This document shows positions 17,063-42,334 of a stretch of 49,842 nt of DNA, in pieces. The notes below the pieces were generated by a model. That model ran no database searches, was not told the DNA's origin, and saw only the letters and a list, made by a program, of their open reading frames with translations. The translations under genes and the position numbers were made by a program. Within the stretch, counting starts at the first letter, position 1; each line of letters begins with the position of its first letter. The DNA is taken from NCBI GenBank assembly GCA_018398765.1, contig JAHBMJ010004016.1, forward strand, positions 34,933-84,774, in the 5' to 3' direction. Source of the stretch: Chromera velia (taxonomy: Eukaryota; Sar; Chromeraceae).

Positions 17063-19827
17063 TTACTGGAGCCCCCCGGCTCCCCCATGCAGGAAACTTC
17101 CCCCCTCGTCCTCTTCCTCATCTGCGTTCCTGGGTCTGGAGAGGGCGTGCACTGCGGCATAGACGCGGGGCAATGCGGAGACCATGGAGGTGCCGAAGGG
17201 GGACTCTGGGTGGAGGACGGAGTTGCGAACGTCAAGAACAGAGAAAAACATTTGGTGCGGCTTGTTCCTCTGAAGATGAACGTGCTGCTGCTGTTGGGAC
17301 CTTCTCAGTCGCCGGGTAGCTGTGGCTGTGTGGGGGGCTGTCAATGAGAGGGAAGGAGAGGAGACGCTGCCTCGCAACTTTCCAGCAGGAGCTGTGCGGA
17401 CTCTGTCGGAAGAGAAAAAGGGGTGCGCAGGAGGGGAAGTGGGGGCCTGATTTTGTCCGTGGGTGGGGGAGCGAGTTGAGGTGTAAAGAATATGTAGTTG
17501 TTCGTTGTCTGCTGAAGTTGCACTTGGCGGCTTCGCCTGATTGGAGGATGCTGCCGCACTCCCCTCGCTTGTACCTCCGATTGAAGTTCTCTGTTTGTTT
17601 TGTGAGGGTCCATTTGCTTCTCTTCGGTGAATGGAACTTGAAGAAGAAATGGAATTTGTTATTTGAAGAGGATCGGAAGACAGCGGGCCAGCGGCAGAAG
17701 TACTGGGCCTCTCTGCCATCAGTTTCTTCCGGGTCTGCTTCATCCGAGCTCTCTGCACTTTTTCCCTGCTCTTCTCAAGATTCGCCAACTGCACCGCGTC
17801 CTCCTCACAAGCTTTGTTTAGTGCCTTGGTCAGATCCGTCAGTCTGGACTTCTCGTGCACTCGGGTGACCCCCCCCTCATCGACGGGACTGCCCACCAGA
17901 GGACCGTCGGGGCCCGTGTTCAGATACCGAGAGACGAACTTGGGATGAGGATCGAGGCCGCCGCTGCCTTGGAAGAGGCTCATGACGGATTTGGATCGCC
18001 TGGCTTTGCTTCCTGTGTGCCTGTGTTTGGTTTTGCTCGCTGTGGGTGACATGTGAGGATGATGAGAATGAGAGTGCGTGTGGGTGTAAAAGTTTTCTCC
18101 CGCCCAGTTAATCGGAACTGGAAGTGACTGGTCAGTGGCAGGGTCTGCCAGGGGTCTTGCCATGATTCCCTTTCTCTCTGGGATGAAGCAAAGGGGGGGT
18201 TCCACAATTGCCGCTGGGGGGAAAGGCTGTATTGGTAGAGCCGGGGCGGCCTGGTGGAATTTGGAGGTCGAGGGGGGACCCACAATCGAGTACCACTCTT
18301 TGCCTTCGTGTGCAGTGCCGGCAGCGCACGTGCCTGCATACAGACAGACAGGCAGGCATATAATCAGAAAAGGGGTCTACACAGAAAGCCGACTCATTGA
18401 TGAAGTCGTTCAGAATTATTCGCTCTGGCCGGAGCAAACCAACGCTGCATGCTCCCAGTGGTTGGCTAGACCGTCACAAGTTGGGCCCGCGAGAAGGAAC
18501 AGAGAGAAGGGGGGAGGGCAGAGAGAAGGGGAGAGAGAGAGAGTCAGGCAGGCAGGCAGGCAGCCTCCGCAACTCGCGGCAACAAGAGAGAGAGGGGGAA
18601 AGGAGGGAAAGCGAGACCACAGATCTTTCTTGACTGCCTCTTCACCGAGAAAAAGCAAAACAAGAAGAGCAGAGCAAACGAACGAAACTCCTTGCAGATC
18701 CACAAACCTTGATTGCAAGTTCGCGCAAACTGGAAAGAGCTGTTGAAAGGACGGATCAACCCGGACCCTGCAACAGAGGAGACGAGAGGAGAGGAGAGGA
18801 GAGGAGAGGAGAGGAGACAAGAAAGGAATTCAAAAAGAACAGATCGAGGCAAGTTTCACGTAAGTTGAAAAGATCAAGACAGTGCTTTCCGAGAGGACAT
18901 CGGGCTTCCTTTGGTAAAACAGAACAGGTACTGCGAATCACACCACTATGATGCATGGAAGAGAATGAATGAATGAATGAGCTTCATTCAACTGACGCAC
19001 CGGTGAACGCCATCGCACACAATATCGAAAACAACAGCAAGTCCCAAGATGAGTATGTGGGTTTTGGTCTTCTTCCCTTCTCTTCTCTTCTCAGCTCTTG
19101 TCGTCTCCGTACCCCAGACCAACCGGTTCTTTCCTTCTTTCCCTTCTCCTTCTACTAGCGGCGCTGGCTCTGTCGCCACAATTCAACAATTCCCTCCACC
19201 CCCTTTTCCATTCCGTCCGCTTCCTTTGCACTTACAGGCATCTCTTCCTGCTCTTCATGACGAATCACGCCCCACTAAACAGGGCTGACCTTCGCCCCCA
19301 CAGTCTGTCTATCTGTATGATACAGTCGCAGCATCCTCACCACCCAAACTCACTCTGCCAAATGCATTGCTGTTCCCTTCGATATATATATGCACGCACA
19401 CAGGCAGGTACACTCTCAGTAAAGGATTCAGCATTCTGGTGCTGTTGGGTCAAATAATTTCAATCCAAGTATTCCTTATTTGTTCGTTTTCTCCTGCCTC
19501 CCCGAGACTCCGGTTTACTTACATTGGCCATTTCCGGTCGTGTCGCACTGAAAAAAACAACGGGAACAAACTTGGCTAATGACTTACGCTTCCTTACTTG
19601 GTGACGATGGACGCACGATGCCAACCCGACTGTGTATGAATACGCATGCACCACAATCAATACGGCAACGGACTTATTCTTGGGTGCGTCTGGTAGTATC
19701 GGAATATTTTCGCGACATCCGCTGGCTTTGTATACTTCTGTCCGAAGGCTGCTGCAATTTCCTTCTCGATCTGCTCCATGTACGCCCGGTTGGCGGGTTC
19801 CGAGATGATGGGCATCTGGGAAGTCAT
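17063..19827 (-). CDS. Unrecognised 523-aa protein, five exons including a 25-nt microexon
   Basis: Exons in transcript order: 19827-19674, 19547-19523, 18767-18708, 18444-18383, 18333-17063. Every junction keeps phase and the sum is an exact multiple of three. Acceptors are GTTTTTTTCAG, TCTGTTGCAG, CATGCAG and TGTATGCAG; donors GTCCGT, GTAAGT, GTTTGT, GTGTAG. The N-terminal 100 residues look folded (SEPANRAYMEQIEKEIAAAF, RVDPSFQQLFPVCANLQS, PERIILNDFINESAF). The remainder is low complexity: His-rich (THSHSHHPH), Ser/Pro-rich, and a basic, probably coiled stretch (LTDLTKALNKACEEDAVQLA and following KVQRARMKQTRKKL). I do not recognise a family. An upstream open segment at about 20045-19890 (FGLDPLFSFKPENP) could be a further 5' exon joining MPIISEP in phase, in which case the start lies further right. 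The (CCGA)n run just before the ATG argues for UTR or intron there. Confidence 0.72.
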
Positions 19828-24641: not shown

Positions 24642-25414
24642 ACTCCTTCCGAAAATTTACCACTGTGTCGGATCGGTGCACATGCAGAAAGCCGGGTACA
24701 CACCTGCGAACATCTACAGGGGGCTTGCTGAGCAGACAGTCGAGTTCGTCTTCACAGCCCATCCCACCCAGGTCTGCATTCATGCGTGTCTCTCTTTGTT
24801 TCTTTTTGTCTTTCTCCTTCCCTCCTCGTCGCAATTAATTCGCCGCCCTTGAAGATCGATCGAGCATTACTTTCTTTCTTTCGGTTTTGAGTGCTTGAAC
24901 TTGCTTCACTCGTACACGACTTTTCACTCAGTGAGACAGGCCTTCAGTGGACATTTCAGTGGACTCACCACCCGAGTTAGCTGCCTGCGCAGACTTGTCT
25001 TTGAGTTTAATTCTTTTTCCTCCCTCCCTCCCGCACCCGCTTCGGTGACAAAGAACTTGAAAAGTGCATGCATTCATCAGAATTCTGTATGAAAATGAAT
25101 GCATGCATACAGGCCGTGAGAGCTTCGGTGACAAAGAACTTGAAGAAGATCGCGGACTCGACTCTCAAACTTGACCGACCCGATCTGACTCCCTTCGAGA
25201 CCGAAGAACTCAGACAGGGGATGCAGGCCGCCATGGAGACCCTCTGGAGAACTGACGAAGTCTGTCTGTCTGTCTGTCTGTCTTGTCTGTCTGTCTTGTC
25301 TGTCTTGTCTGTCTTGTGTGTCTTGTCTGTCTTGTCTGTCTTGTCTGTCTTGTCTGTCTTGTCTGTCTTGTCTGTCTTGTCTGTCTTGTCTGTCTTGTCT
25401 GTCTTGTCTGTCTG

Positions 25415-32119: not shown

Positions 32120-33181
32120 TCTTCTTCTCCATCTCTCCCCCCACCCCCCCCTCTCTCGCTGTGTTGATGAATGCATGAGTGCAGATTCTTCCACGGCAGA
32201 GGAGGGAGCGTCGGCAGAGGAGGGGGCCCTCAGCACGTGGCCATCCTCTCGCAGCCCCCGGACACGATCAACGGGTACCTCCGCGTGACGATCCAGGGGG
32301 AGGTGATCCAACAGGACTTTGGGTTGGAGGGCCTGGCAGACAAGACCCTCGAGACCTTCATGACAGCAGGTACGTAAGTTTGTGCATTTACTTTCATACA
32401 GAATTCTTTTTCATACAAAGAATTCTGTATGAAAGTACAGGCAGACAAGACCCTCGAGACCTTCATGACAGCAGGTGGGTCGGTAGGTAGGTAGGTAGGT
32501 AGGTATGCTGATGGATGCAGACAGACAGACTACACACGCACACATATAAATGCATGTATGCGTATACATATACGTACACGCGCGCGCGCACACACACACA
32601 CAGAGGTGGGTGGGGGGATTGCCGAGAAGACTTCCGAGACGCTCCTGTCAACAGACACGCAGAAGGGAAACACGAATGGGCAGACGGAGTCCAGGGGGAA
32701 AACGAGGCGCCTCATTAGAGTCACGCTCACAGGCTCTCTGGACATGCATGCCCTCATTGAAACTACACACACACACACACACACTGTCTGCGAAAGTCTA
32801 GCCATCGAAATTCTTCCGTTGAGTCGTTGCGAGGGATCCGAGAGAGAGAGAGAGAGAGAAGAGAACAGAGAGAGAGAGAGCGGGAAACAGAGGCAAAAGT
32901 CTTCTGCTGTGATGCCATGACAACGTTCTCTTCTCTTGATGGTTGAATGCAAGCAAAATGTGCTCATTGTGTCCATAACTACCTGCCCACGTGCCTGCCT
33001 GCGTGCGTGTTGCTGTTGTTGTACAGTTCTGAAGTCGGATCTGCTGTCGACGAAGGCGGTGGTGAAGCCTGAGTGGAAGGGACTGATGGACAAAATGGCC
33101 GTCGCTTCCACTGCGTGGGTCTCTTTTCTCTCCTTTCTCTCTTCTCTTTTTTTGTCGTCTCTGCTTTCTTTCTCTCCCTCT

Positions 33182-33224
<43 letters not shown>

Positions 33225-34135
33225 TCTCTCTCTTTTCCTCATCCACTGCTCCTGCGTGCAAGGAAGGATGAAGGACCCTCTGCTCAAATCTTGGGAGGGA
33301 AGGATTCTGTTGCCCTCGCCCTTGCCACCGTTCCTCTCTTTCTCCCTTCCTTCCTTCCTTGTGTTGCTTGATTGTGTCGGATGGGAGGACTAATACATGC
33401 ATGCATGCAGCCACTACCGCTCGTACGTGTACGAGAGGCCCGAGTTCGTCTCCTACTTCCGCTGTGCGACTCCTGAAACAGAGCTGGGGAAGCTGAACAT
33501 CGGCAGCAGACCCCAGAAGAGAAAACAGGGGGGGGTCGAGACGCTCAGAGCCATCCCCTGGGTGTTTGCGTGGACTCAGAACAGGTTCCTTCTCCCAGTT
33601 TGGCTCGGTGAGCTTGTTTGTCTCTTTGTTTCTTTATCTCTCTCTTTCTCTCTTTGTTTCTTTGTTTCTTTCTTTCTCTCTTTCTCTCTTTGTTTCTTTC
33701 TCTCTCTTTGTTTGTTTGTTGGCCTGGACAAAGTGTTTTTGAGAACAGCTTCTGTCGTCCTTCAAATGAAAAGCCTCCAGTTTCGGCTCTGTAATGCCCT
33801 GAAAGGAAATCCCTGCCGCTCTTTTCAAGGGTTTGTTCCGTTTGTCTGTTTGACCCTAGTTTCATCTGAGTTCCTTGGTGTAGCTTGCAAAATCGAAAGA
33901 GATTACTCTTCGGTTTACTTTCACGTCTTTCTTTGTCCAATTCGCAGCTTTCATCGATTTCAGTGCTTCTTCCTTTGGGGGGGGGAGAAACGAATGTGAA
34001 TATATTTTGAAGGGGCAAGCAACCTTTCGTCCATTTTCTGTATTTCCATGTGGTTGTCTCCATTGTTTGTCCTTCATGGGCATATGAGTGTGTGAATTCG
34101 AAATTCTTCCTTCGGGTCTGGATTTAACTTGAATT

Positions 34136-35411: not shown

Positions 35412-35729
35412 CGTGTGTAGCCACGCACGTTCAGATGTTCACGTGAATAGGAATATGCCGACTGCCTGACTGACTGACGCACGCACGCAGGATTTCCCCG
35501 ATGAACGTCCTCCAGATTGTAGTAAGAAGATTAAAGAATCAATTCAATTGACGCACGCAGGATTTCCCCGATGAACGTCCTCCAGATTGAGATTCTCCGG
35601 AGGCTGCGGGAAGAGGACGCGAAAGAGTCGAAGGGCCTGAAGAGTGCCGAGACAGAGGTGGCAAGGCTGAATGACGCTCTCATCGTTGTGATCAAGGCAA
35701 TTGCGGCGGGCATGCAGAACACAGGCTGA
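20959..35729 (+). CDS. Phosphoenolpyruvate carboxylase, about 23 exons
   Basis: Adds bicarbonate to phosphoenolpyruvate to give oxaloacetate, feeding the TCA cycle and carbon-concentrating routes. Exons: 20959-20975 (tentative start), 21763-22044, 22445-22515, 23189-23240, 23632-23698, 24688-24771, 25113-25259, 25991-26157, 26694-26808, 27234-27401, 27798-28102, 28442-28514, 29350-29426, 30037-30097, 30400-30455, 30890-30956, 31353-31534, 32185-32369, 33027-33114, 33411-33607, 34203-34353, 34638-34790, 35561-35729. All phases match; the product is about 977 aa, the usual plant-type length. Family motifs in order: FVFTAHPTQ (catalytic His), [14 protein letters not shown] and LLETIDAL (metal-binding Glu and Asp), [28 protein letters not shown] (catalytic His and Arg), [13 protein letters not shown], and the C-terminal QNTG. 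The plant N-terminal phosphorylation site (SIDAQLR type) is not seen. No transit peptide is evident, so cytosolic action is likely. Odd points: one GC-AG intron, exon-edge duplications at three introns, many GTC donors. Confidence 0.97.
24316..24532. repeat. (TG)n and (TCTG)n array in a carboxylase intron
   Basis: Long (TG)n with GCGT interruptions passes into (TCTG)n, then a purine-rich stretch, then a second (TG)n at about 24610-24640. It lies within the 989-bp intron between exons 23632-23698 and 24688-24771. Long Cys-Val or His-Thr open frames across it are repeat artefacts. Confidence 0.9.
25039..25144 (+). repeat. Exon-derived direct repeat flanking a palindromic spacer, case 1
   Basis: GCTTCGGTGACAAAGAACTT followed by GA occurs at 25039-25060 in the intron and again at 25122-25143 inside the next exon. 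The spacer holds an inverted repeat, TGCATGCATTCAT against ATGAATGCATGCA, around CAGAATTCTGTATG, and ends in the real acceptor CATACAG (25112). Confidence 0.9.
25260..25506. repeat. (TCTG)n and 9-bp CTGTCTTGT array starting at a splice donor
   Basis: The intron after exon 25113-25259 begins GTCTGTCTGTCTG, so the donor is the first unit of the array. The middle part is about 15 tandem copies of the 9-mer CTGTCTTGT, flanked by (TCTG)n on both sides. Confidence 0.92.
25855..25990. repeat. (GAGT)n tract, then poly-C with one undetermined base
   Basis: (GTGA)n or (GAGT)n fills about 25855-25932. A C-run at about 25968-25984 is interrupted by N at 25981, the only undetermined base noted in the window, and runs straight into the acceptor TTGCAG of the exon at 25991. 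Its true length is unreliable. Confidence 0.85.
28817..28922 (+). repeat. Intronic direct repeat, case 4
   Basis: TTTCTTTTGGAGGG plus CCCTGCATG occurs at 28817-28843 (with an extra AGGG) and at 28900-28922, about 80 bp apart, inside the intron between exons 28442-28514 and 29350-29426. The spacer contains (AATGAT)-like repeats. Unlike the other cases, no exon sequence is copied. Confidence 0.8.
31229..31316. repeat. (GAGT)n tract in a carboxylase intron
   Basis: About 20 copies of GAGT/GTGA with single-base interruptions, ending roughly 35 bp before the exon at 31353. It is followed by ATGTATGCATGTATGAATG and the acceptor TGCATGCAG. Confidence 0.9.
32335..32476 (+). repeat. Exon-end direct repeat flanking a perfect palindrome, case 2
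   Basis: The last 35 bases of the exon plus its GT (32335-32371) are repeated without change at 32440-32476. The 68-base spacer begins, with the preceding GT, as donor GTACGTAAGT and ends TACAG. It contains a perfect 19-bp inverted repeat, TACTTTCATACAGAATTCT at about 32389-32407 and its complement at about 32419-32437, separated by 11 bases. Splicing 32370-33026 keeps the reading frame; using the second copy as an exon (34 nt) would shift it. Confidence 0.95.
35128..35418. repeat. (TG)n with a larger repeat of about 70-90 bp, three copies
   Basis: A block containing GTGTCTGTGTCTATATGCGT, then GGTGTGTGCATG and (TG)n recurs with starts near 35180, 35270 and 35340. It lies in the intron between exons 34638-34790 and 35561-35729. 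Open frames across it are repeat artefacts. Confidence 0.85.
35480..35589 (+). repeat. Exon-start direct repeat, case 3
   Basis: CGCACGCAG plus the first 29 bases of the last exon (GATTTCCCCGATGAACGTCC and on) occur at about 35482-35519 and again at about 35552-35589. The spacer, beginning GTAGTAAG, is about 31 bases and contains CAATTCAATTG. The first copy reads into a stop, so the second must be the functional exon. Confidence 0.95.
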
Positions 35730-38788: not shown

Positions 38789-39680
38789 GTGCGAAACGTG
38801 ACAGTGAATGGAAGAAGGCTGTCCATTGCCATGCTGAATGTCGGGGGTCTTGATTCTCGTCTCGGGAATGAATCGCTTGACCGGTGGTTGGAAGGGATCG
38901 ATGTTGCAATCCTGACTGAAACAAAGTACACAACCACTTCAATCAACACACCCACCCATACAGGAAAAAAACTTTAGTCATCAAGAATGGTACAAAAGAA
39001 AGCTGGGGGTACACAAAAGAGCAAAGGACAGGGAAGTAAAAACAGGGGGGGGGTCTATCCTTGTCCGATCATGCTTGGTCGCTAGTCTGAAGCCTTCTTG
39101 GGAGTTGGTGGGGCCCAGTATGGTCAAACTAACACTCAGGAACTGCTTGCCAGCCTAGGAAGGGGGGGGACGAATGCATCTCTGCACATTTTTGGTGTCT
39201 ATCTCCCCCAATCGGGGGCAGAAAAGAGACTAAGAAACAATGAACCGAAAGAGGTAGAGAGAGAGATGCTTCTCAACGCAGTCTGTGATGTTCCGCTATA
39301 TGACTTTCGCATTGTGGCAGGAGACTTCAATTGCCACATAGGAAAGGAGGTCCCTAAAGGCCTAAAGGAATTTCATGGGAAAGGGAACAGATCGGGGGGG
39401 CGGGTGACTTATAAGAGATCTTGGGAGGCAAGGGGGAAGAAGCAATCGAGGGACTGTCTCGCCGCTCTGACTATCGTTCAATCGTAAACGAACCAGGAAG
39501 AGCTGCCATTCACTTTTATAAGAAAGCAAACCTCTTTCCCTTGAATGGTCTGTCTTGGAAAGATGAAAAGAAAGGGATTGAAGTCAACTTCACAGGGGCT
39601 TGCACTTATTATGAAGGGGGTGCTCTAGCTACGGTCATTGATTTGTTTTTGGTTGATCCTCCTCTTCTTGGTTTGTGAAA
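38789..39680 (+). pseudogene. Retrotransposon endonuclease domain (AP-endonuclease-like), broken
   Basis: Segments in different frames carry the landmarks of the exonuclease-endonuclease-phosphatase fold: LSIAMLNVGGLDSR, DVAILTETK (catalytic Glu region), LHIFGVYLPQS, FRIVAGDFNCHIG (the GDFN motif) and TVIDLFLVDP. Two or more frameshifts, one between about 38975 and 39100 and another near 39480, separate them. The domain would nick target DNA to prime reverse transcription in an intact element. Confidence 0.8.
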
Positions 39681-40599
39681 TTCTTTTGGGGTTGAGCTAC
39701 AGCTTGACGCAGCCCCCAAACATGCGGCCGTTTCTCTATCTCTCAACCTCTTATCTCCGCCAAAACCGAATAACAACTCGCCGCCTCACCCTTCCCTTGT
39801 CCTATCCCCTTCTTTTATGAAACCAAGAAGGTAAACACCGGTCACCAATGATGAGATGATGCCTCTAGCAACTTCGGTAAAAGATTTAGCAGGGAAGGTT
39901 TGGCCTGGGTTGTGGGACACCGGGATCTAGGAATCAAAAAAAGAAGGCAAGCCTATTCTATCCATACCTCCGCCTCCTCCTCCTCCTCCCTTCTTCCCCC
40001 CTCCCCCTGTGTTCATCCCTTCTTTTTACCCCGCTACTCAGATACCACCTTCTGCCTTTCCGTCTTCCACTTGTTCTATCTCTGTACCACTGAGAAGCCA
40101 AATAGCCAGACTCACCTAACAGTGGGAGTATGTACTCACGCAATCGAAGGAGAGAAAATAAAAGCCAACTTATCCAAGAAAAAGTGAAAGGAAGGAAAAG
40201 GCTGTCGCACCTTGGAGGGATCAAGAATGCAGGGAGATTCAGAAGAGAGTTAGATCCGTAGAAAGGGAATGGAAGGAAGAAAAAGAACTCTGGGGACACG
40301 AACATGAGCAGTGTATCACAGCAAAGAGAAAAATAAGCAGGTTAAACAGAGAGAGAGGGAAGTTGATAGCAAGAAAAAAGAGAAAGTATACCATTCTTCA
40401 GGCAGAGAGACTCGCGAAAGAAGCTGCTAAGGACCTAGCAGCCCTATGGGAATGGAGGAGGGAGAGAAAAAAGGCAGAAAGTGGGAGTGAGGGAGAAAAG
40501 CCGTCCGCCTTTTCGTTTTCAAATTTTTAGGCCGATGTGTTCAGTGGGGACGGACTGGAGCCTTAAAAGAAAGATAAAACATCAGCTCCCCCCTCGGCA

Positions 40600-42334
40600 C
40601 CTTTCTTCTCTTTCGATAAATGTGAGAAGATACTGAAGGCAATCGACCCAAAGAAGGCAGCCAGCCTCGAAGGAATCTCCCCTACGCTAGCCCCTGTGCA
40701 GGTACATTTATGTTTTTCCTCTTTTTGTCTGTCTTGTTTTTTTCTTTTCATTTTCTTCAATCTTTTTTTCTTTTTTTCTTTCTAGCCAAAAAAGTGGAAC
40801 TTCATTTGAATCACTCCTGTTCCAAAAGGTTACGTCTCTCCCTCTTGTGACAAATGGAGGCCCATACACATTGTTTGCCTTCTGGCAAAGTTGTTTGCGT
40901 TGTTGATGGATGCCACATAATTATGGTCAGTTAAGGGAGATAACGAATATAGATGAACGACAGGTAGGTTTTAGGAAGGGAGTCGGTACAAGGGAAGCAA
41001 TAGCTGCTCTCCATGCTCTCACGGCTTCAGCAAAGAAGAGACACAGACCACTCCTTGCAGCATTTGTTGACTTCAGCAAGGCATTTGACCGAGTACCCAG
41101 AAAGAAAATGATTGACAGACTTAGAGAAGAAGGAGTTAGCGAGAAGGACCTGTGCATAATTTATTCTATATATATGAATGTGTGGGGAAAGGTGGATGGA
41201 TCAGATTGGGTCTTTCCCGAAAGTGCAGCAGTAAAACAGGGAGATCCACTTTCTCCTCTTCTTTTTCTTTTGTTTATTAATAATATTCATTCTGCTCTGA
41301 ATGTTGAAGGGAGGGAAGCTGTTAACGGCTTGGATGGAGAATCAGATACAGATGAAAGACAGAGGGGGGGAGAATGCGGAGAGAGGAGGGAGGAGAGTGA
41401 AACAACGGAGCAGCGACCCCGCATCCCTGAGGAGGTAAGATTGGCAGACTTACTGCTTAAGAGCATAGGTTACGTAGACGGTCTTGTTATTTTTGCTTAC
41501 TCTTCTTCTGACCTGTAGTGGCGTTTAGACCGTTTGGCCTCTTATTGTCAGAAACATGGGTTGAAAGTGAATTTAAAGAAAACAAAAGTTCTTGCACTCT
41601 CAGGCTCAAGAAGGGAAATAGAAGGGGAAGTGACTTTTGAAAGGAAGACAGTTGAACGTGTAAAGAGCTATAAATACCTTAGATGTCGTGTGTTTGAGAG
41701 AGGGGACCTAAGAAAGTCAGTCAGAGACCGACTTGAAAGTGCTGAACGCTGTTTGGGGGCAGTGATAGGCACTTGTTCATCCTTAGGTCCTTTGCCCCCT
41801 CGATGCAAAGTTTGTTTACTGCAGGCGCTCTGGAAGCTGGTAGTAACGTACTCGCTGGAAGCCTTGCTAGTAAATCAGAGAGATATCGTTGCACTTGATG
41901 TATTGCAGCTTCGATTTGTGCGCTGGACATTCCGTTTGCCCTATAACTCTTTCAAGGTGCCAACTTTGGTTTTGGTTGGTGTGCGTCCTATGAGAGAGAT
42001 CCTTTTTTATCAGTTGGGAGGTTTCATAGAAAGCATAAAGAAAATAGAAAGGGAGGTTCTTCGGGCAGTCTGGGATGTATGGCATAGATCGCTGACCCCG
42101 GTATGGGCTAATTCAGCCAGTAGCATGCTTCAGACAATCGCACCAGATCTTTTAAGAAAAGAAAGCCAGAGAGGGAGAAACGGAACAAATAAATGGACAC
42201 TCAGGCAGAAAGCAAGGGAAAGGGAAGCCTCAGAATGGTTGTCAGAATGGTTGACTTCAAGACCCGTCGGCGAGCATAGGTTCACCCGTTCATGTGGTAT
42301 CTATCTACACAACTCCCGACTAAGTAATTTTTAG
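40600..42334 (+). pseudogene. Retrotransposon reverse transcriptase, active site mutated
   Basis: Landmarks in order: DPKKAASLEGISPTLAP, then WRPIHIVCLLAKLF, RQVGFRKGVGTREAI, FVDFSKAFDRVPRKKM (first catalytic Asp region), AVKQGDPLSPLLFLLFIN, and SIGYVDGLVIFAYSSSDL where YxDD is expected. A TAG stop at 41517-41519, probably once CAG, follows, then LASYCQKHGLKVNLKKTKVL and the thumb-like part to 42334. The second Asp of the catalytic pair is Gly, so polymerase activity would be lost even without the stop. Confidence 0.88.

Follow-up and report, generated by a model that had tools for sequence, protein, structure and literature searches.

The window analysed here, a stretch of 49,842 nucleotides from a Chromera velia contig, carries a phosphoenolpyruvate carboxylase (PEPC) gene on its forward strand, on which all features below are given. 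One exon of this gene (32185..32369) was placed by tblastn with a Chromera velia protein (P0001), residues 667-728 of which match 32183-32368 at 100% identity; residue 728 of the matching PEPC corresponds to the last whole codon of the exon, 32366-32368. The preliminary description of this DNA had reported that the exon end plus GT is repeated exactly downstream, and the alignment bore this out: 32335-32371 and 32440-32476 are identical at 37 of 37 positions, their starts lie 105 bp apart, and, with the exon ending at 32369, each copy comprises the 35 last exon bases followed by GT. The GT at 32370, in the first copy (32335..32371), is the donor fitting the known protein. The second copy (32440..32476), delimited by the repeat alignment, contains a would-be 34-nt cassette (32441-32474), of whose use the protein gives no sign.

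Between the two copies lies a 68-bp insert (32372..32439), beginning with ACGTAAGT after the GT as had been described. Its reported end, TACAG, was correct for TACA, whereas the final G is already base 1 of the second copy. The hairpin proved perfect as claimed, but it is not a 19-bp palindrome: the stem has 21 perfect bp around a 7-nt loop, and the 21-nt right arm (32417..32437) is the perfect complement of the 21-nt left arm (32389..32409), which contains the word shared by the family described below. Folded as single-stranded DNA, the insert reached -19 kcal/mol (z = -9.07 against 200 shuffles, 0 of 200 as good). Its first ~11 bases (ACGTAAGTTTG) could represent the duplication carried on, in diverged form, into the AGGT-repeat intron start. 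The structure supports the earlier proposal of an insertion with target duplication, of the kind expected from staggered-break repair, and the full identity of the repeat fits the recent event that had been suggested; within the family, repeat identity ranges from 0.81 to 1.0.

The joined exon peptides of the carboxylase, a query from which some exons were absent, had as their best match a 980-aa PEPC of Chromera velia CCMP2878, with 100% identity over a best local alignment covering 56% of the query. The source tags of this protein include 'mmetsp', which we take to denote a transcriptome collection. Mapped back on the window, the protein gave 19 listed matches above 85% identity. At 32369 the exon closes with ...ACA GCA G, and the next protein residues, A-V-L-K-S, come from an exon at ~33027; the 15-residue stretch across this junction contains neither the 34-nt cassette nor the insert. 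Inclusion of the cassette would shift the reading frame, and it had been proposed to act as a poison exon; the protein lends this no support, though rare inclusion may occur. Use of the second-copy donor alone would retain the insert in the mRNA and bring in an in-frame stop, TAA at 32375-32377 (frame 0: FMTAGT*). Since the protein lacks both insert and cassette, we infer that the first-copy donor was used in the mRNA behind it, and carboxylase splicing would accordingly proceed from that site. The second copy ends GCAG/GTGGGT, so a two-step (recursive) splice through it is possible, judging from these bases.

Two other duplications lie in the same gene. In the first, repeat alignment paired 25039..25061 with 25122..25144 around a palindromic insert of the same family, recognised from its sequence (25065..25107). 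The second copy falls within the exon starting at 25113 (P0001 residues 194-244 at 25110-25262), 3' of the working acceptor, and the insertion sits just inside the exon. The copy at 25039..25061 lacks the splice acceptor and the first exon bases that precede its partner; the decoy acceptor was presumably lost by deletion. The other duplication, 39 bp long, extends across a 3' splice site: 35481..35519 is identical at 39 of 39 positions to 35551..35589, within which tblastn placed the beginning of an exon of the known protein (residue 926 at 35562). Its 31-bp insert (35520..35550) has no family word and no inverted repeat of at least 6, and the locus suggests that long target duplications may not need hairpin-word inserts. 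Some carboxylase introns, e.g., at 33390-33410, end in TGCATGCAG or similar, which is the tetranucleotide repeat of the insert outer ends. Elsewhere in the window, 38900-42000 holds open frames resembling those of a retroelement, presumably a LINE endonuclease and reverse transcriptase.

For the genome-wide search, we used a 177.8-Mb assembly of 4,040 contigs (the window lies on contig C3479), a contig set differing from the published Chromera assembly, which is reported at 193.6 Mb in 5,953 scaffolds (PMC4501334). The region 32300-32520 resulted in 113 matches at E <= 0.001, itself included (40 candidates were scored, and palindromes can count on both strands). The exact 16-nt arm word CTTTCATACAGAATTC occurs 656 times in the genome (309 forward, 347 reverse), against 0 for its reversed control. 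A palindrome found nowhere else had been named in the preliminary description as a sign against its proposal; the 656 copies show otherwise, and a one-off event was rejected on the strength of them and the genome-wide matches. A longer word, GAATTCTTTTTCAGGGAGC, running on to AGGGAGC, has 37 exact copies (control 0). At G000:C2903, this longer word lies at 18437 (+) and 34861 (-), facing inward and 16.4 kb apart, like the ends of a large element; by rough estimate, ~0.3 such same-contig pairs are expected by chance.

Several other origins of the word were considered. A viral or prokaryotic source was rejected, as a 22-nt word had 0 exact matches in viral_contigs and genome_contigs; 13 phage similarities were weak (E ~0.6). 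A known RNA family was rejected because 0 of the 40 listed matches reached the gathering score, most of them being microRNA hairpins. Equal word spacing in two contigs had pointed to a 1,356-bp element, but this was discarded because every word there lies in a separate short insert flanked by a separate repeat. No published description of such a hairpin-insert family was found in the open literature at the level of titles and abstract starts, with subscription papers and preprints outside this scope.

We examined 100 stretches. Forty of them (L009-L048) comprise 39 around the best BLAST places and one neighbour stretch, and the other 60 (L049-L108) were drawn, irrespective of repeats, from the first 100 arm-word places in contig order. 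The first three of the latter were chosen for word spacing, yet they are on the contig-order list; this set omits places on C95, C116, C150, C253 (in the first set), C430, C440, and one on C433. The contig-order set contained 65 groups with the exact word, 52 single and 13 in tandem arrays of two to six units. A direct repeat was detected around 62 of the 65 (local alignment, score >= 16), with a length of 20-74 bp (median 40.5) and an identity of 0.81-1.0. The three remaining groups were an array with a 15-bp outer repeat just below the threshold, a diverged repeat, and an N gap. A score of at least 25 was reached by 49 of the 65 focal groups versus 90 of 1596 random flank pairs, 123 of which scored at least 16; such high random scores are probably due to microsatellites. 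Across 324 kb, where most loci had been selected by the word, 101 repeat pairs were found, 70 with a family spacer, and 21 of the other 31 were judged to be tandem repeats.

The carboxylase insert probably belongs to a family of some hundreds of short (~30-115 bp) inserts, each apparently formed in place. A repeat-rich genome assembled from short reads (PMC4501334) could in principle show such a pattern, and a single local tandem duplication could create one instance of it. The recurrence of the structure in 62 of 65 contig-order groups, with repeat copies diverged down to an identity of 0.81, makes an assembly artefact unlikely at the family level, and we regard an artefact or a lone tandem duplication as hardly credible. 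Arrays of several units of target repeat plus insert were observed at L036 (~1536-2690), L052 (803-1300), and L071, and L021 (1979-2790) holds a minisatellite of 74-bp units in which a diverged arm is present. The inserts seem to seed minisatellites.

The insert table comprises 113 records, all with a repeat. A set of 89 inserts was obtained from it by removing 22 in arrays, one microsatellite false positive (window 31086), and one insert longer than 130 bp (L024, an array). Across the 113 records, the inserts are mostly 30-90 bp long, and their outer ends, read inward, are TGCATGCATTTACTTTCATACAGAATTCTTTTTC, at times continuing to AGGGAGC. Most are head-to-head palindromes of this outer-end stretch. 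Terminal inverted repeats are present, the exceptions including L069 and L073, single-arm inserts of 30 and 33 bp.

The interiors differ from insert to insert. All 53 comparable cores were distinct, and an edit distance of at most 4 was found in 12 of 1378 pairs. The median difference between a core and its nearest neighbour was 16% of core length; the neighbour lay within 5% for 4 of 89 cores and within 10% for 18 of 89. The same median was obtained for the young-copy subset, 26 inserts with equal-length repeats of at least 0.97 identity, in which one core had a neighbour within 5% and five within 10%. Array units had a self-identity at the period of 0.84-0.99 in eight of 13 arrays; indels may explain the lower values, 0.45-0.75, of the remaining five. 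The near-identical units within some arrays indicate that copying can preserve cores.

The arms, in turn, agree with each other within an insert. The same variant base occupied both arms in 48 of 58 inserts (shuffle mean 29.0, reached by 0 of 20,000 shuffles), and a second variant base was alike in 26 of 27 (shuffle mean 20.9, p ~0.001). A further 151 arms were anchored on CTTTCATACAG with up to two mismatches, which by itself imposes some of the constancy of this stretch. Beyond it the match to the longer word fades: 146 of the 151 remained colinear over 10-29 bases, most often 23 (27 arms).

A fold-back or MITE-like DNA element could account for part of this pattern. Under such an explanation, the outer ends would be terminal inverted repeats, a transposase would cut with an unusually wide and variable stagger, and abortive gap repair would have scrambled the interiors. 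The palindromic ends, the target duplications, the hundreds of dispersed arm words, and the symmetric variants are all expected of it. However, the 53 comparable cores are all distinct, those of young copies too, and single-arm inserts of 30 and 33 bp occur (L069, L073). Furthermore, the duplications of 20-74 bp exceed the 3-9 bp given for the characterised DNA-type introner families (PMC9860276), and an autonomous partner was not found among the places listed. We consider a fold-back element somewhat unlikely.

The outer motif restarts inside nine of 89 inserts by a simple pattern; two of the nine, L100 and L101, may be an edge or T-rich effect. At 38 of 86 joins between arm and target, a microhomology of at least 2 nt was found in the register of the template (shuffle mean 15.6, maximum 24 in 2000 shuffles); TGCA-rich targets, kept by the shuffle, give part of this, and the borders set by the alignment assign matching bases to the target. 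No clear nick motif was found at the duplication ends, whose composition was only slightly biased, to T at -1 (0.38) and to G at +2 (0.40); microhomology to TGCA may be the cause. Microhomology-mediated end joining that captured abundant short DNA, such as a high-copy repeat, at breaks with long overhangs would need no dedicated machinery. It would fit the microhomology at the joins, the patchwork interiors with restarts and inversions, and the locus at 35481-35589, where another insert content accompanies the same long duplication. Nevertheless, one vocabulary dominates, with the family spacer in 70 of 101 repeat pairs at mostly word-selected loci, and the same outer end faces both sides. Undirected capture of this kind is, in our judgement, improbable.

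We then compared the duplications with predicted exons. A first, self-trained gene model lost its calibration and assigned the carboxylase to the opposite strand (36 of 89 sites at junctions versus 24.7% of controls), and it was replaced by a fixed coding model built from the carboxylase and run on reconstructed empty sites. This model overlapped 12 of 12 test exons, with nine starts and nine ends exact, these exons being the same as the training set; of its 25 predicted exons, 12 were not among the test exons, and three of these 12 correspond to additional exons of the protein. In an earlier run, the donor matrix was seeded with 12 strings, some from the carboxylase and some hand-typed as generic after the insertion loci had been seen, and 45 of 89 sites spanned a predicted junction (null mean 13.2, maximum 23). 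After the matrices had been retrained, the count was 60 of 89, compared with 20.2% of controls. The repeat run used splice matrices from carboxylase donors and acceptors only, minus the three junctions touched by insertions, and excluded the two window sites.

In this repeat run, 43 of the 87 duplications outside the window spanned a predicted splice junction, 40 were noncoding, and four were wholly exonic, whereas control places in the same loci were 13.7% junction, 71.8% noncoding, and 14.5% exon. The null for the 87 sites had a mean of 11.9 junction cases and a maximum of 23 in 1000. The contig-order loci alone gave 32 of 55, against a null mean of 7.9 and a maximum of 16. The spanned junctions were 22 acceptors, 20 donors, and one both, and the junction lay anywhere within the repeat. 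Homology supported exons at several loci: a succinate dehydrogenase flavoprotein at L049 (E 1e-49 to solved structures), the second-largest subunit of RNA polymerase I at L089 (E 4e-5), and, from Pfam, tyrosinase, citrate transporter, and cytochrome b5. When ten exon peptides were submitted to Pfam, four were above the cut-off, four had sub-cut-off matches only (including the polymerase exon), and two had none. At L105, one citrate-transporter-like exon has an insertion with duplicated flank at its acceptor (775) and another at its donor (1087).

Purging of exon-internal insertions alone predicts ~13 junction cases among 83, compared with the 43 observed; if loss is no faster among noncoding insertions, insertion seems also to favour exon edges. 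The decoy splice sites are well preserved, with acceptors intact in 30 and 30 of 31 and donors in 25 and 26 of 26 for the two copies. As both copies are intact nearly always, selection on the decoys is not visible.

The preliminary description had suggested intron gain, i.e., an insert that makes a new intron in a former exon, as introners do. Splice signals stand at both ends of the duplicated unit, the repeats span junctions, and the gene model places four of 89 insertion sites wholly in an exon, all of which agree with it. At the carboxylase, however, the insert lies just inside an intron that ends at a separate exon at ~33027, so this intron does not consist of the insert. In the frame test, none of the 89 sites had a frame that was open and coding-like on both sides, against 3.45 expected from control places, a weak test in that the Poisson probability of zero is ~3%; stricter exon-internal thresholds also gave 0. 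No clear case of intron gain was seen among the 89 sites, and both copies of the splice dinucleotide usually remain. We conclude that intron gain is a very improbable account and that the insertions look like splice-junction duplication instead.

A mechanism in which both 3' ends of a staggered break of ~40 bp were extended on one short template and then joined is the reading we favour, and it stands, in our assessment, at an even chance. A break with nicks ~40 bp apart would leave two recessed 3' ends, and their fill-in would produce the target duplication. Aided by TGCA microhomology, each 3' end would then prime synthesis on a short template common to both. The simplest candidate is a small RNA whose 3' end is ...UGCAUGCA, copied by a reverse transcriptase; such an RNA would end ...GUAAAUGCA(UGCA)-3'. 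Extension would stop at a variable point or restart on another template molecule, and joining the two extensions would yield the insert. At a splice junction, the duplication would carry a complete splice site on the safe side, and the reading frame would therefore be kept. The outcome would be a lengthened old intron with a decoy splice site left behind.

Two-end extension on one template explains jointly the palindrome, the equal arm variants, the unique cores, the restarts, the microhomology, and the duplication. In its favour are the genomic count of the arm word (656 versus 0), the repeats around nearly all contig-order groups (62/65), the distinct cores, and the concordant arms. The spread of the arm ends, the restarts, the microhomology, the junction bias, and the insert-free protein on record were also counted as support. 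Reverse transcriptase genes are abundant, since all 150 scored matches to PF00078, the best 150 of 1759 candidates, were positive. Against it, the duplication ends show no clear nick motif, the duplications of ~40 bp exceed the human L1 peak given below, the insert at 35520-35550 lacks the word inside a duplication of the same form, 18 of 89 cores have a neighbour within 10%, and the microhomology and arm concordance would also fit a fold-back DNA element with symmetric subfamilies. Inspection by eye of the best 150 PF00078 matches and the places listed found no reverse transcriptase closer than 13 kb to a hairpin or arm word, and neither a template gene nor the enzyme was found among them. 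For this reason, template extension rises no higher than evens against a fold-back transposon and the other rivals.

We propose, more tentatively, that Chromera velia possesses, or once possessed, a system by which the two ends of a break with a ~40-bp stagger are lengthened on one short template and joined. Its insertions would be written afresh each time, with a several-fold preference for exon-intron boundaries, and it would multiply splice sites across the genome and seed minisatellites. If so, this would be a mobile sequence in which no copy derives from an earlier copy. It would also be a natural source of duplicated splice sites, from which alternative donors and acceptors, cassette exons, and sliding intron ends could arise, and its target-site duplication of ~40 bp, several times that of characterised introners, could be studied in an alga that grows in culture. 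With RNA and long reads, the preference for junctions (43/87 versus ~12 expected) is testable.

The inserts share with MITEs and fold-back elements the inverted-repeat structure, the dispersion, and the target duplication. Copies of a MITE family typically have a common internal sequence and a fixed short target duplication, whereas the Chromera inserts have neither. Introner elements (Gozashti et al. 2022, PMC9860276; Amoebophrya, PMC7789003) are likewise described as many dispersed short genic inserts with inverted-repeat ends, direct repeats at their borders, and splice sites supplied by the target. Their direct repeats are given as 3-9 bp in the characterised families (PMC9860276) and 3-5 nt in Amoebophrya (PMC7789003), in contrast to 20-74 bp (median 40.5) in Chromera. 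Moreover, introners make introns, whereas the Chromera inserts duplicate existing exon edges, and the Chromera interiors differ at every compared locus, with only the ends shared.

Two described processes come nearest to the proposed mechanism. One is the copying of telomerase RNA into mammalian double-strand breaks, with microhomology in the register of the template (Nergadze et al. 2007, PMC2246262). These patches are similar in being short templated inserts at breaks with in-register microhomology and oppositely oriented parts. Their target duplications are rare (Table 1 of PMC2246262: 6 of 130 loci in rodents, 4 of 25 in primates), whereas duplication is nearly universal in Chromera, and the template word in Chromera does not belong to the TTAGGG-type telomere repeats.

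The other is twin priming by LINE reverse transcriptases, in which cDNA synthesis is primed at both ends and the two strands pair through a short complementary stretch (PMC2912911). The resulting 5'-inverted L1 retrocopies resemble the Chromera inserts in their inverted halves, microhomology, target duplication, and variable cDNA length, and the priming of two target 3' ends on RNA is the same in the mechanism proposed here (PMC2912911). Human L1 target duplications peak at 14-16 bp in a study limited to 5-30 bp (PMC2912911). The Chromera duplications differ in their median of 40.5 bp and in having no clear nick motif, and the Chromera inserts, shorter than ~115 bp, carry the same template end at both outer ends.
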